Shown here: piece after piece, positions 5,781 to 10,457 of the stretch
How positions within the stretch are numbered: the stretch's first letter is position 1
How the letters are laid out: each line of letters opens with the position of its first letter
Source: Bacteroidota bacterium
GTDB taxonomy: Bacteria > Bacteroidota > Bacteroidia > Chitinophagales > Chitinophagaceae
DNA: 11,962 nt
Assembly: GCA_947461015.1 (NCBI GenBank)
Contig: CANHIR010000047.1
Span: 1-11,962 of the forward strand
Direction of reading: 5' to 3'
The notes under the pieces: generated by a model
What the model was told of the DNA's origin: nothing
The model's database searches: none
Seen by the model: the letters and a program-made list of their open reading frames with translations, nothing else
Program-made: the position numbers and the translations under genes

Positions 5781-6986
5781 TTAACCCCGCCGAAACAATA
5801 CTTTTATGGCGGCAGGTAAAAATGTCCTTGTGGGTAAACTGCGCATGATGCGAAAGTCCTCCCAAATGGTAGAGGTATTAGATAAAAATTTAAAAATAGT
5901 CGTAGCCTTGTTCTTTTCAAAAATGCGCTTAAATATCTCACTTCCATCCATCAAATCATAATATAGTATGTATAATAAGACTGCATCATAAAATTGATGT
6001 CTAGTATTATGTATTTCGGTTTGCACCTCCTTTTCATTGACTAAAGATGTTACAATTTGCTTTACCTGCTCCTGAATAAAATGAAATGCATACCCTGTAC
6101 TGGACTTTACTGCATTGCCTAATGTGCCTATAACATATATTGGTGGGCTACTTTTAGCAAAGCTTCGGGTAGTCATTGGTATTGCACCCATTTCCTCGTG
6201 TAATATTTCATAGTTTACATTAGGAAAATGCTTTTCTAAATAGATATTAATCTCAACTGTATAATCCGCTGGTTGTAATATGGTTTTAGAGAATAAAGTA
6301 TATTCAACCAAAGCTTTACGGTTAGTTAAAGGAAGTACATACATAAAACCAGTAGCTCCTTTTTGATCCACATTAAAATCCATTAATCTTGCAACATTTG
6401 CATCAAACACATTGGAATCAAATTCAACTAAATGACCTTTGAAATGTTGCCACAAAAATGGGGTATCGGTACTTTTTTGACTGATACTATATAATTGATC
6501 AATAGGCAACAAACTAGAAAAAACTTTTTTTCCCTTGGCCATTCCGCCCTCCCAATGAACAATTGCATTTTCAGCATCCTTATCAATTGAAGTTATATTG
6601 GCTTCTTGCCAATACACATTCGCAAATTGCTTAGCAAAATTCAAGACATGATTATAAAAATCTAACCCATTGATCATTTTGTAAATAAATGGATCCGTTG
6701 GCAAGGTTCTTGAGAAACTATTTTTATGTACCGATATCCGATCCCATTTTTTGCAAATTAAGGATTCAAAAATACCAGCTTCTGCTTCCCAAAAACACCA
6801 GGTGCGATCATTTGACTTATCAAATGATCTATCTATCAACAATATTTTTTGATTGTTTAATACAGGTGTACTTAATATAGAATACAACAGAGAAAGGCCT
6901 GAACAACCTGCGCCGGCTATAATTATATCATAAATACCATCATAATTAGAGTTGGTATTATTTTCCATTGGCTTGAATGCGTTCAT
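5781..6986 (-). CDS. crtY: Lycopene beta-cyclase
   Basis: CrtY closes both ends of lycopene into beta rings to give beta-carotene. It is an FAD/NAD(P)-binding, membrane-associated enzyme. The product is 401 residues, normal for bacterial CrtY. Residues 20-35 hold the dinucleotide-binding fingerprint GAGCSG (25-30). DRTWCFWE (60-67) is the family signature DxTWxF. FLWQHFKGHLVEF (177-189), FMYVLPL (214-220), GAIPMTT (267-273) and GTLGNAVKSSTGYAF (287-301) also match conserved CrtY blocks. With the start at 6986 the gene overlaps crtZ by 29 bases. A second ATG at 6968 (MENNTNSNYDG) would cut the overlap to 11 bases. I keep the first because AAGG precedes it, but either is possible. It is the last crt gene, and tRNA-Arg follows. 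Confidence 0.92.
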   Translation of the reverse strand: MNAFKPMENNTNSNYDGIYDIIIAGAGCSGLSLLYSILSTPVLNNQKILLIDRSFDKSNDRTWCFWEAEAGIFESLICKKWDRISVHKNSFSRTLPTDPFIYKMINGLDFYNHVLNFAKQFANVYWQEANITSIDKDAENAIVHWEGGMAKGKKVFSSLLPIDQLYSISQKSTDTPFLWQHFKGHLVEFDSNVFDANVARLMDFNVDQKGATGFMYVLPLTNRKALVEYTLFSKTILQPADYTVEINIYLEKHFPNVNYEILHEEMGAIPMTTRSFAKSSPPIYVIGTLGNAVKSSTGYAFHFIQEQVKQIVTSLVNEKEVQTEIHNTRHQFYDAVLLYILYYDLMDGSEIFKRIFEKNKATTIFKFLSNTSTIWEDFRIMRSLPTRTFLPAAIKVLFRRG

Positions 6987-7431
6987 CTTGACGAACCTTA
7001 TCCCAATATTTTTTAGCCACTATTAACATGCCAAAACTTTCACTATCTTCTTTTCCAATATGCTTATGATGCATTTTGTGTGCCCAACGAATTGCCTTTA
7101 TATACCTACTATTAGACTTTGTAAACCACTTTATACGCTGATGAATGATTACTTCGTGCACTATAAAATAGGCAAATCCATACATCGCAACACCAGTTCC
7201 AATTCCTGCGACCCATAATGGTCCACCAAAATTTCCATAAAATATACATGCCATACTTGGCACCGCAAAAATTAAAAAAAAGGCGTCATTTTTTTCAAAA
7301 AAATGTCCAGTTGGTTGATGATGATCTTCATGTAAATACCATAAAAAACCATGCATAACATAACGATGTGTTAACCAAGTGATCCCTTCCATAATTGCGA
7401 AAGTCAACAATGTTACTGCAATAAAAATCAT
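6958..7431 (-). CDS. crtZ: Beta-carotene 3-hydroxylase
   Basis: CrtZ hydroxylates the beta rings of beta-carotene through beta-cryptoxanthin to zeaxanthin, using a non-haem di-iron centre in the membrane. The product is 157 residues from ATG at 7431; an in-frame TTG at 7440 adds only three residues. The histidine clusters that bind iron are present in the expected order: HRYVMH (22-27), HEDHH (34-38), HEVIIH (92-97) and HKMHHKH (118-124). Hydrophobic helices lie at about 2-20, 50-66 and 72-91. The family also includes fatty acid and sterol hydroxylases, but the cluster and the HEDHH and HKMHHKH spacing support CrtZ. The start is 27 bases after crtB and the 3' end overlaps crtY, consistent with coupled translation. 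Confidence 0.92.
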   Translation of the reverse strand: MIFIAVTLLTFAIMEGITWLTHRYVMHGFLWYLHEDHHQPTGHFFEKNDAFFLIFAVPSMACIFYGNFGGPLWVAGIGTGVAMYGFAYFIVHEVIIHQRIKWFTKSNSRYIKAIRWAHKMHHKHIGKEDSESFGMLIVAKKYWDKVRQDERIQANGK

Positions 7432-7458
7432 AATAATCAATTTTAAGTGGTAAAGGTA

Positions 7459-8301
7459 CTACAACAAATTTAACTGGCTACGAATTTTAGCTTTAGCAAA
7501 TATAAAAACCTTGCCATAATCTGGAATTCTGATCCGAGTTTGTAAAATAGAATGATGTTTGGTTTTTTTTATTTTCTTGTAAAGGGTGTAATAATATTTG
7601 AACGCCACATATACGCCAAATCGCGCCTTAAGAGGCAATATTTTAATGCCATCCAAGGCAGCTGAAAAATCGGCTTGGATATCTTCCTCTATTATTTGCT
7701 TATCCTCCTGTTTAAAATTCGCAAAATCACAATTTGGAAAATACATTCTTTCCAATCCTTCAAAATCCGCTTTAATGTCTCTTAAAAAGTTAACCTTTTG
7801 AAAAGCAGCGCCCAATCTTTGAGCAGAAGGTTTTAAATGCTCATATTTTTCTTTGTCCCCATCACAAAATATATGTAAACACATTAAGCCTACTACTTCG
7901 GCACTGCCATAAATATAATTTTGGTATGTAGCTGCATCATACTCCTGTTTGCTTAAATCCATTTCCATGCTGTTAAAAAAAGCATCGACTAATTCAAGAC
8001 CAATATTATATTTCCTAACGGTCAATTGAAAACGATGTAAAATTGGATTTAAACTAACCCCCTGCTCAATAGCAGTATAGGTATCTAATTTAAATTGTTC
8101 CAATAATTTAGCCTTATCAAAATCATGAAAAGTATCTACAATTTCATCTGCAAAGCGAACCAAACCATAAACATCATAAATGGGTTGACGTAAATCCTTA
8201 TGCAATAATTTAATAGCCATAGAAAAACTTGAACTATACCTTAAAGTAGTTTGTTTGCTGGTTTCTGCTGTTACTTGATTGTATAATTGAAACGATGACA
8301 T
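7459..8301 (-). CDS. crtB: Phytoene synthase
   Basis: CrtB joins two geranylgeranyl diphosphates head to head to make 15-cis-phytoene, the first committed step of carotenoid synthesis. The product is 280 residues, typical of the bacterial family. Both Asp-rich metal- and diphosphate-binding motifs are visible: DEIVD at 52-56, preceded by YDVYGLVRFA, and RDIKADFEG with D175 and D179. SSSFSMA at 23-29 and AAFQKVNFLRD at 165-175 are further family blocks. Squalene synthase and HpnC/HpnD enzymes are related, but the position between crtI and crtZ decides for phytoene. The start lies two bases after the crtI stop. Confidence 0.95.
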   Translation of the reverse strand: MSSFQLYNQVTAETSKQTTLRYSSSFSMAIKLLHKDLRQPIYDVYGLVRFADEIVDTFHDFDKAKLLEQFKLDTYTAIEQGVSLNPILHRFQLTVRKYNIGLELVDAFFNSMEMDLSKQEYDAATYQNYIYGSAEVVGLMCLHIFCDGDKEKYEHLKPSAQRLGAAFQKVNFLRDIKADFEGLERMYFPNCDFANFKQEDKQIIEEDIQADFSAALDGIKILPLKARFGVYVAFKYYYTLYKKIKKTKHHSILQTRIRIPDYGKVFIFAKAKIRSQLNLL

Positions 8302-8303
8302 AT

Positions 8304-9809
8304 CTATGCTTTATTATAATTTTGATTAACCAATTCGGCAACCACTTCTCCACTTATTAAGCTAGGCGGAACCCCTGGACCCGGAACGGTTAATTGACCA
8401 GTGTAATATAAATTATTTATTTTTTTACTCTTACAAGAAGGCTTTAAAATTGCCGTTTGCATCAAAGTATTTGCCAATCCATAGGCATTTCCCTTAAAAG
8501 AGTGGTATTCAGATACAAAATCCGATACCGCAAAGGACTTTTTATATACAATCGCATCTCCAATAGATTGTCCAAATCGCGCTTCCATCCTTGCAATTAT
8601 TTTATGAAAATACACATCTCTAATGGCTTCCGTATCTCCATTTAAACCAGCAGCAACAGGAATTAATAGGAACATATTTTCATGTCCTGCTGGCGCCACG
8701 GTGGCGTCCGTAACCGAAGGAAAACTTGCATAAAATAAAGGATCCTTAGGCCAAGCTGGATGGGTATATATTTCCTTCCCATGAACCCCAAAATCAGTGT
8801 CAAAAAATAAATTATGGTGTTGTACTCCAGTTAATTTTTTATTTAATCCTACATAATATAAAATAGAACTAGGTGCCATTAATCTGTCTTCCCAGTATTT
8901 GTTGGAATAGGACTGATATTTTATATCTAACAACTTTGTTTCAATATGGTGATAGTCGCCAGCACCCACAATCACATCAAATTCATATTCCTTTTGTTCT
9001 TGCGTTTGTCTATGAATAGTTCTAACCGATTTTGCCTCACCATTCACAACATTTATTTGCCTAACTTCTTCTCCAAATTTAAATTGTACGCCTTGTTCTA
9101 GTGCTACTTTATACATTCCATCCACAATACTATACATTCCTTTTTCTGGATACCAAGTACCTCCTTTTATGTCAGCATAGTTCATTAAAGAATATAGGGC
9201 AGGTGTATTTTCTGGCAATGCTCCTAAGAACAGCACAGGAAATTCCATGATAGACTGAATATAAGGATGCTTAAAAAAATGTGCTACATGTTTTTTCATG
9301 TTCTTAAAGATGTCCAACTTAAACACCCCTTTTATTACATCCCACTCAATAAATTCAAATAAGGATTGTCCAGGCTTATGCACCAACTTCCCTACGCCCA
9401 CATCATATTTATACTTTGCTTCCTCCATGAATTTGTCCAATGCCTTTGCAGCACCGGGTTCAACAGATTCTAATAAATCCTGAAATGCCTCGTAATTCGC
9501 AGGCATATCCCAATGGGTAGTTTCAAAATATACACGATAGGAAGGATCTAATCTTTTTAGTTGATAATAATCACTAACTTTTTTACCAAATTTTGCAAAG
9601 TATTTTTCAAATACATCGGGCATCCAATACCAACTAGGCCCCATGTCAAAAACAAAACCATTGGTTTCAAATTTTCTTGCTCTTCCTCCTGGGATATTGT
9701 GTTGTTCAACAACAGTAACCTCCCAACCTTTTTGTGCTAAAAAACTTGCTGCTGAAAGGCCAGCAAATCCTGCGCCTATAACTAAAACATTTTTATTGGG
9801 GGAAGGCAT
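8304..9809 (-). CDS. crtI: Phytoene desaturase (CrtI type)
   Basis: CrtI converts phytoene to lycopene by four desaturations, using FAD at the membrane surface. The product is 501 residues, the usual length. The N-terminus has the FAD-binding fingerprint VLVIGAGFAGLSAASFLA with GAGFAG at 12-17, the acidic residue ending the second strand at E35, and GGRARKFE at 41-48, then FDMGPSWYWMPDVF. The C-terminal family block GQLTVPGPGVPPSLISG lies at 471-487. CrtN and CrtD-type desaturases share this layout, so the number of desaturation steps is inferred from the presence of crtY, which needs lycopene. The gene begins seven bases after the sigma factor stop and is followed two bases later by crtB. 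Confidence 0.95.
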   Translation of the reverse strand: MPSPNKNVLVIGAGFAGLSAASFLAQKGWEVTVVEQHNIPGGRARKFETNGFVFDMGPSWYWMPDVFEKYFAKFGKKVSDYYQLKRLDPSYRVYFETTHWDMPANYEAFQDLLESVEPGAAKALDKFMEEAKYKYDVGVGKLVHKPGQSLFEFIEWDVIKGVFKLDIFKNMKKHVAHFFKHPYIQSIMEFPVLFLGALPENTPALYSLMNYADIKGGTWYPEKGMYSIVDGMYKVALEQGVQFKFGEEVRQINVVNGEAKSVRTIHRQTQEQKEYEFDVIVGAGDYHHIETKLLDIKYQSYSNKYWEDRLMAPSSILYYVGLNKKLTGVQHHNLFFDTDFGVHGKEIYTHPAWPKDPLFYASFPSVTDATVAPAGHENMFLLIPVAAGLNGDTEAIRDVYFHKIIARMEARFGQSIGDAIVYKKSFAVSDFVSEYHSFKGNAYGLANTLMQTAILKPSCKSKKINNLYYTGQLTVPGPGVPPSLISGEVVAELVNQNYNKA

Positions 9810-9816
9810 AATAAGA

Positions 9817-10317
9817 TTAATATCTTTCTATTTTTTGTTTCAAAATTTTTCGTGCAAAGTGAATCCTGCTTTTTATCGTTCCCAATGGCTCACCCAATTC
9901 TTCGGCGATTTCATTGTACTTATAGCCTTCAAAATACAAATTAAATGGTATTCTAAACAATTCTGGCAGCGCAAATATCATTTCATTCACTTCTCTCATG
10001 TTTAAATTGGTAATTCCCTGATTCAACACCTTTGTATGTGTTTGATCTATGATATAATCATTTGGGGTACTGTCAAAAACAATGGATTGCTTTGAACGCT
10101 TACGGTAATCATTTATGAAAATATTACGCATAATGGTATACAACCAAGCTTTAATATTGGTTCCTACATTGTATTTGTCCTTATTGGAAAAGGCACGAAA
10201 CAAGGTTTCCTGAAACAGGTCCTTAGCAGATTCATGGTCCTTTGTTAAATTAATTGCAAAAGGCCTTAAAAACTCGGCATTTTCGGTAAGTAGTAAACTG
10301 AATTCAGCGTTTGACAT
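9817..10317 (-). CDS. ECF (sigma-70 family) RNA polymerase sigma factor
   Basis: The product is 166 residues, normal for an ECF sigma factor. Region 2 spans about 12-78 with the core-binding and -10 recognition stretch DLFQETLFRAFSN ... NIKAWLYTIMRNIFINDYRKRS. Region 4 spans about 108-162 with LPELFRIPFNLYFEGYKYNEIAEELGEPLGTIKSRIHFARKIL, containing the -35 recognition helix-turn-helix. (These spans are given in pieces; there is a short linker between them at about 79-107.) No anti-sigma gene is adjacent, which is unusual for an ECF factor. The gene heads the tight block leading into crtI, crtB, crtZ and crtY and is preceded by a 140-base regulatory gap. It probably drives the crt genes and perhaps other light-stress genes. 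In Myxococcus the ECF factor CarQ plays a similar role, but orthology is not shown here. Confidence 0.9.
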   Translation of the reverse strand: MSNAEFSLLLTENAEFLRPFAINLTKDHESAKDLFQETLFRAFSNKDKYNVGTNIKAWLYTIMRNIFINDYRKRSKQSIVFDSTPNDYIIDQTHTKVLNQGITNLNMREVNEMIFALPELFRIPFNLYFEGYKYNEIAEELGEPLGTIKSRIHFARKILKQKIERY

Positions 10318-10324
10318 ATATTTT

Positions 10325-10357
10325 TGTTTAACATTTAAATAATAATGCTAAACAAAA
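10325..10357. promoter_or_regulatory. Operator-like element, proximal copy
   Basis: TGTTTA (10325-10330), an 18-base spacer and TAAACAAAA (10349-10357) form a dyad; the arms TTTTGTTTA and TAAACAAAA (10322-10330, 10349-10357) are exact complements over nine bases. GGGGA follows at 10362. The element ends eight bases before the sigma factor start codon. It may be a site for the adjacent CarH-like regulator or part of a promoter. Confidence 0.5.
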
Positions 10358-10379
10358 TTAAGGGGAAGTATCCATATTC

Positions 10380-10412
10380 TGTTTAATTATTTTTAATAAA
10401 TATTAAACAAAA
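10380..10412. promoter_or_regulatory. Operator-like element, distal copy
   Basis: This repeats the proximal element exactly 55 bases away: TGTTTA (10380-10385), an 18-base spacer and TAAACAAAA (10404-10412), with GGGGA at 10414. Here the perfect arms extend to TGTTTAAT and ATTAAACA. The spacer sequences of the two copies differ while their lengths agree, as expected for constrained protein contacts. Confidence 0.5.
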
Positions 10413-10457
10413 TGGGGATAAAATGATAATTAATTGATTTTCTGCGTTTTAGTTAAA

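Follow-up and report, generated by a model that had tools for sequence, protein, structure and literature searches.

What function do two TGTTTA-N18-TAAACA dyads have in the gap between a merR-type regulator gene and a gene for an extracytoplasmic function (ECF) sigma factor, and which protein might read them? The question is raised by CANHIR010000047.1, an 11,962-nucleotide contig of a Bacteroidota bacterium of the family Chitinophagaceae (assembly GCA_947461015.1); the whole contig is called the window here. An earlier note on this DNA described two elements of the same architecture and offered two explanations, operators of a CarH-type regulator or promoter boxes read by the sigma factor itself. 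Judged from sequence, the dyads are a real and conserved pair of operators, most likely those of the adjacent CarH/LitR-like repressor, in a new arrangement for a known type of system. We consider it probable that the neighbouring MerR protein occupies them as a dark repressor of the carotenoid operon, with adenosylcobalamin (AdoCbl) bound, and is released by light; MerR binding, repression, oligomeric state, operon structure and the dependence on light and B12 are what we infer in this proposal.

Twin dyads and their conservation within the genus

Both dyads of the window are exact (Table 1), with starts 55 bp apart and spacers of different sequence, just as the earlier note had it; a wider TAAACAAAA tail is present in both copies. 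Markov shuffles, which here and throughout preserve dinucleotide content on average only, gave a mean of 0.01 dyads against the two observed, and none of 200 shuffles held two copies. The genome search that the note had proposed returned only these two exact copies, both at this gap, in 1,701,433 bases of the window genome (71% complete), and the dyad pattern read backwards, used as a control, had 0 matches in the same bases. When up to one mismatch was allowed, the window genome gave 30 dyad matches, the two exact ones included, versus 32 for the control, which is background.

We then examined the gap in relatives. A protein search of 100 genomes, the window's own included, gave a match at E <= 1e-20 in 78, and the same-genus set comprised 54 loci whose regulators were about 50% or more identical. 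One of these, L033, extends past the end of its contig and was excluded, leaving 53 readable gaps; the contig of L042 stops before the ECF gene, yet its gap carries both dyads. A divergent copy in G010 (L096) and second copies in G027 (L095) and G035 (L094) were grouped with the distant loci, and all three lack the dyad. The proximal dyad, with A or G as its last base, adjoins the ECF gene in 53 of 53 gaps. Its spacer, permitted to range from 17 to 20, is 18 bp in 35 gaps and 19 bp in 18. Upstream of the proximal element, at a distance of 24-26 bp, 49 of the 53 gaps have a second right half ([TC]AAA[CT][AG]), 43 of them with a perfect left half; this second right half is absent from L052, L056, L059 and L071. 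An alignment of the last 100 bp of 32 gaps, anchored solely on the ATG of the sigma gene and blind to the motif, gave the two elements and a -7-like box as its conserved columns. The view that such a twin architecture is unlikely to arise by chance is therefore borne out both by the shuffles and by the same-genus gaps. The GGGGA that the note saw behind each element is indeed there in both window copies, but it lies within 16 nt of at least one element in only 3 of the 53 gaps, and of two in 1, and was rejected as part of the element.

The genus divides in two by the length of the proximal spacer. One part has 18 bp at every locus but L034, the other 19 bp at most loci, with 18 bp at L067, L068 and L071. 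One locus with a regulator 73% identical to that of the window, L154 (CALPWK020000046.1), comes from a record titled Comamonas sp., which is probably mis-named or a mixed bin.

The proximal element also overlaps a predicted -7 box. The sequence TANNTTT[AG] is found at the left half of 46 of the 53 proximal elements (exact TANNTTTG in 13) and in none of the 49 distal ones. It resembles the flavobacterial sigma-A -7 box, TAnnTTTG, which spans -12 to -5 (PMC9723704; this and the other papers are cited from extracts). A box of this kind would put the start of transcription within the proximal dyad, approximately 21 nt upstream of the ATG, and the simplest reading of the sequence would be steric repression of a housekeeping promoter. 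In the dark, AdoCbl-bound MerR would sit on both dyads. The proximal dyad would cover the -7 box together with the expected start site, and the distal dyad would lie at the promoter's upstream edge. Because these positions are over and beside the promoter, housekeeping RNA polymerase would be excluded and the ECF-crtI-crtB-crtZ-crtY operon would be off. Light would break the Co-C bond, MerR would let go, and the carotenoid operon, including the ECF factor, would be expressed.

Which regulator reads the dyads

Dyads also occur outside the genus. At order-level and named loci, dyads lie before ECF genes and before merR (e.g. in records titled Flavisolibacter, Flammeovirgaceae, Catalimonadaceae and Flavobacteriales). 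Five merR genes with a dyad in front have no ECF match nearby, that is within about 2 kb on each side for L076, L082 and L098, and within about 1.5 kb for L337 and L350; even at the weakest threshold (E <= 1), ECF-less merR loci gave short, chance-level matches only. L098 is a merR-crtI-crtB locus, and its dyad starts 35 bp before merR. L088 and L091, two loci of one genome, also have merR surrounded by three dyads each; because both contigs stop some 200 bp beyond this gene, they were left out of the argument from merR genes without ECF. Exact dyads are found in 19 of the 30 best class-wide merR loci (window included); of the spacer lengths from 14 to 24, none but 18 (in 25 cases) and 19 (in 6) was seen there.

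A class-wide comparison with the 14-base site TTGTTTA-N18/19-TAAACAA drew on 296 Bacteroidia genomes that had passed a 90% completeness filter, from which the window genome was exempt. The regulator profile matched 198 of these genomes at E <= 1e-30. Genomes with the CarH-like MerR had the site in 140 of 198 cases (321 sites; 66 for the backwards control), and those without it in 18 of 98 (23 sites; control 28), an association with a Fisher p of 8.7e-18 versus 1.0 for the control. Since related genomes are not independent, the test was repeated within the 20 families that hold both kinds of genome: 72 of 101 genomes with the MerR and 12 of 43 without it carried the site (Mantel-Haenszel p 1e-6; within-family permutation p 5e-5). 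Furthermore, the CarH core TnnACA is matched by each half-site, since TAAACA reads T-nn-ACA. Across the 53 gaps, outward inverted pairs of TnnACA occurred 68 times at 24 bp (expected 0.3) and 23 times at 25 bp (expected 0.4). Conservation, co-occurrence with the merR family, sites at merR promoters and the fit of the half-site thus lend support, at the level of sequence, to the CarH-operator explanation of the earlier note.

Several observations weigh against this explanation. The exact 14-base site is missing from 58 of the 198 genomes that carry the MerR, and 18 of the 98 without it have the site. Five of these 18 belong to a single genus (G205, G280, G302, G341 and G357, with no match at E <= 1e-30). 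No exact dyad was found in 11 of the 30 best class-wide merR loci, or at the distant merR loci L072, L073, L078, L081, L087, L092, L094-L097, L099, L181, L184 and L185; the ECF gene of L092 is preceded by a dyad with one mismatch. The regulator scored 102.8 bits (E 1.9e-29) with the CarH equivalog NF052513, below the curated cut-off of 400 bits. The known CarH layout of tandem 11-bp direct repeats was looked for and not found, with 0 direct TnnACA pairs at 11 bp in the 53 gaps (expected 0.88). At the promoter, the -7 box of the window itself agrees poorly with the consensus (4 of 6), and a TTG box at -33 was dropped because it was not significantly enriched (18 of 53 gaps; shuffled mean 11.9, largest 21). 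Finally, of 13 readable crtI loci in genomes without the MerR, 12 had no ECF match and the other, L360, had a 39% match pointing the other way.

These crtI loci bear on the second explanation of the note, in which TTTTG and TAAACA are promoter boxes read by the ECF factor itself in positive autoregulation. ECF autoregulation is common, and the elements directly precede the ECF gene in the same-genus gaps. The CrtI search covered 80 genomes (75 of the 98 MerR-less class genomes and five same-genus ones) and found a crtI locus in 16; none of the 16 had a dyad, nor did any of the 13 left after L358, L359 and L370, which lack a readable promoter, were dropped. Since ECF gene and dyad are mostly missing together there, such loci cannot separate MerR from ECF, and the link with merR is in part a link with the ECF gene as well. 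Among them there was also no copy of this ECF gene with a readable promoter but without this merR, so that the two are not separable from that side either. However, the motif is a two-fold dyad, it occurs before the five merR genes without ECF in reach and before ptps-folE (below), and the proximal copy bears a box of sigma-A type. A CGT box is tied to ECF factors in Flavobacterium psychrophilum (PMC9723704), and in the window the stretch of operon strand that separates the distal dyad from the ATG contains no CGT-type -10 box. We therefore favour a MerR operator over an ECF promoter, as the site follows the CarH-like MerR and lies before merR genes with no ECF in reach, and regard ECF-read boxes as quite improbable, contrary to the note's alternative. 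Equally doubtful is that some other regulator of light-related genes, and not the product of the adjacent merR, binds the dyads. The minority of MerR-less genomes that carry sites would fit such a protein, but the strong co-occurrence with the MerR, also within families, the sites at merR promoters and the identity of the half-site with the CarH core all argue for the MerR. Chance dyads in AT-rich DNA would account for the equal one-mismatch counts; set against the exact pair that no shuffle reproduced, the unbroken series of same-genus gaps and the class-wide association, this explanation is hardly credible, and it is already refuted because the dyads are conserved.

What the MerR itself senses has to be weighed separately. 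Its N-terminal MerR winged-helix domain is recognized by PF13411 (E 1.4e-13) and PF00376 (E 4e-8), it has the CarH-type B12 module of a helical and a Rossmann-like domain, and its fold is CarH-like. Residues W139, E149, H150 and H187 align with W131, E141, H142 and H177, which bind AdoCbl in Thermus CarH (PMC11796333), and they are invariant in 24 homologues; the motif Wx9EH was read in 28 of 29 scanned loci, L097 being the exception. We consider it unlikely that a MerR binds the dyads without B12 light sensing of its own and answers a partner or another signal, in the manner of CarA or of class II LitR, although such a protein would share the operator claim made here. Members of this kind exist, such as CarA (PMC8156234, PMC9304148), and class II LitR works with a LOV protein and has operators that are also inverted hexamer pairs (PMC9758184). 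The invariant AdoCbl-contact residues speak against it, but CarA also keeps the canonical B12 motif (PMC8156234), so these residues are not decisive.

The locus and other candidate targets

On the minus strand the gene order is nucleotidyltransferase, MerR/B12 regulator, the gap with the dyads, ECF sigma factor, crtI, crtB, probable crtZ and crtY (Table 1). The crtZ gene is named, as a probable one, from its histidine-rich motifs and its position. Named records with regulators close to that of the window are freshwater-type metagenome-assembled genomes titled Bacteroidetes, Chitinophagaceae or Sediminibacterium.

Table 1. Features of the merR-ECF-crt locus, with positions in the window
Feature	Position	Strand	Details
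Proximal dyad	10325..10354	(-)	operon strand TGTTTAGCATTATTATTTAAATGTTAAACA; 7 bp from ATG of ECF gene
Distal dyad	10380..10409	(-)	operon strand TGTTTAATATTTATTAAAAATAATTAAACA
Predicted -7 box over left half of proximal dyad	10343..10350	(-)	TAGCATTA, 4/6 specified bases of TAnnTTTG
CarH/LitR-like regulator gene, 292 aa	10458..11336	(-)	MerR DNA-binding, B12-binding helical and B12-binding Rossmann-like domains
ECF-type sigma factor gene, first gene downstream of the dyads	9817..10317	(-)	Sigma70_r2, Sigma70_r4_2
crtI-type phytoene desaturase, next gene of putative operon	8304..9809	(-)	NCBIfam NF058655 CrtID, 719.5 bits, cut-off 640
crtB-type phytoene synthase	7459..8301	(-)	PF00494
Probable crtZ-type carotene hydroxylase	6958..7440	(-)	no Pfam or NCBIfam match
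crtY-type lycopene cyclase	5781..6986	(-)	PF05834

Other promoters were scored with a matrix derived solely from crt-gap sites, 74 in number and all from the genus. The threshold of 15 was chosen after the first shuffles, those for ptps and for the rhodopsin genes of relatives, and was fixed before the FAS1 and class-wide rhodopsin tests. Where more than 30 loci existed, the best-matching 30 were used and not a random draw. Target genes were named by Pfam (PTPS, GTP_cyclohydroI, Bac_rhodopsin, BCD, Fasciclin and the FAD_binding_7 of photolyase).

Upstream of the second ptps gene, the one with folE behind it, 21 of 30 same-genus loci had a site over the threshold versus 0 of 600 shuffles; for the first ptps gene the count was 0 of 30. 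In the window genome this site is CGTTTA-N18-TAAACA, with one mismatch, at G000:C110:4298-4327 (L374:1999-2028), 55 bp before the gene. It is the only further target in that genome that conservation backs, the others suggested by the one-mismatch search being rejected as background.

Among the rhodopsin promoters of relatives, 13 of 47 exceeded the threshold (48 loci, of which L222 lacks upstream DNA) versus 0 of 940 shuffles, and so did 10 of the best 30 class-wide rhodopsin loci (L376-L405), versus 0 of 600 shuffles and 0 of 30 reversed sequences. All 67 of the 296 genomes with a rhodopsin over the Pfam cut-off have the CarH-like MerR (Fisher p 3e-14), a co-occurrence that by itself could be explained by a shared lifestyle or a shared need for carotenoids. 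The window genome's own rhodopsin promoter (L297) has no site (score -7.8). Control of rhodopsin genes by the MerR is a prediction from sequence. In L196, L197, L198, L205 and L110, the dyad lies upstream of a rhodopsin gene that is followed by a beta-carotene dioxygenase-like gene. Two dyad-less rhodopsin genes, L225 and that of the window genome, have in common TTGTGAATGA and then GTTCACCAAAA at about -46.

For genes of FAS1 (fasciclin-domain) proteins, 5 of 31 rows (30 genes, as L375 repeats L277) scored at least 15 versus 0 of 620 shuffles. With only these five over the threshold, FAS1 was rejected as a general target, and the window genome's FAS1 gene (L277, L375) has no site (score 4.8). 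Dyads were seen at the start of FAS1 protein genes in L126, L119, L201, L203, L204 and L192.

That the site recurs in front of ptps-folE and, in many relatives, also of merR and rhodopsin genes would make the carotenoid operon part of a light regulon. We propose, tentatively, that a CarH subfamily widespread in the Bacteroidia may use TGTTTA-N18/19-TAAACA and directly control carotenoid, pterin and, in many lineages, proteorhodopsin genes. A 14-base site that tracks one regulator family across the class would allow the light regulon to be predicted from sequence, with proteorhodopsin as a striking candidate target; if this is true, it would explain in molecular terms how light controls the expression of rhodopsin in these bacteria.

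Comparison with known systems

Among the matches listed from the open-licence literature, none describes an operator of a CarH-like protein from this phylum, and the inverted geometry with a long spacer appears to be undescribed for CarH. Like the present locus, the crt cluster of Echinicola marina is reported to have merR and rpoE, the latter for a stress-type sigma factor, alongside the crt genes; its account, in the extract cited, gives no operator or mechanism (PMC8683446). The extracts of PMC6338057 and PMC3587595 give no regulator for crt or rhodopsin genes. MliR of Bizionia is a different MerR-like protein, without an effector domain. Carotenoid synthesis is reported to be light-induced in Chryseobacterium lacus; because neither car nor lit genes turned up there, the authors of that study suspect a new regulator (PMC7064467), and this species may therefore use a different mechanism.

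The CarA operator of Myxococcus xanthus is also about 55 bp long and was first described as two inverted repeats, one of them overlapping the -35 of a carotenoid operon. However, direct repeats were later suggested for it (PMC9304148), and CarA works without B12, its antagonist being CarS (PMC8156234). Among published layouts, class II LitR (PplR1 and PmlR2 of Pseudomonas) comes nearest, with the operator T(G/A)TACA-N12-TGTA(C/T)A and two sites per promoter, one over the -35 and one between the start site and the start codon (PMC9758184). PmlR2 is the effector of a LOV photoreceptor, and the light-inducible genes include folE and phrB (PMC9758184). Inverted hexamer pairs and two sites at one promoter are thus shared; the LitR motif itself is not present here, as the half-sites are TGTTTA/TAAACA in place of TGTACA and the LitR spacer is 6 to 7 bp shorter (12 versus 18 or 19).

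CarH operators in Thermus thermophilus, Bacillus megaterium and myxobacteria consist of three to five tandem 11-bp repeats, nnnnTnnACAn, some of them degenerate (PMC9304148, PMC8156234). They share with the dyads the TnnACA core of the half-site, the carotenoid genes downstream and a MerR with a B12 domain as the repressor, proposed in the present case. An overlap with promoter elements may be a further common point, given the -7-like box of the proximal elements, but a -33 box is not enriched here. They differ in arrangement, since the elements described here are inverted pairs 24-25 bp apart from start to start, usually present twice, with no direct pair at 11 bp. Direct pairs at 21 bp do occur, 17 times in the 53 gaps (expected 1.0), and sit inside single dyads; 12 of them run through TGTTAAACA at the right half, the other five through TTAACA at the left, and they might provide weak extra contacts. 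The comparison with CarH raises the question of how CarH-type DNA-binding domains would read an inverted pair whose half-sites lie 24 bp apart.
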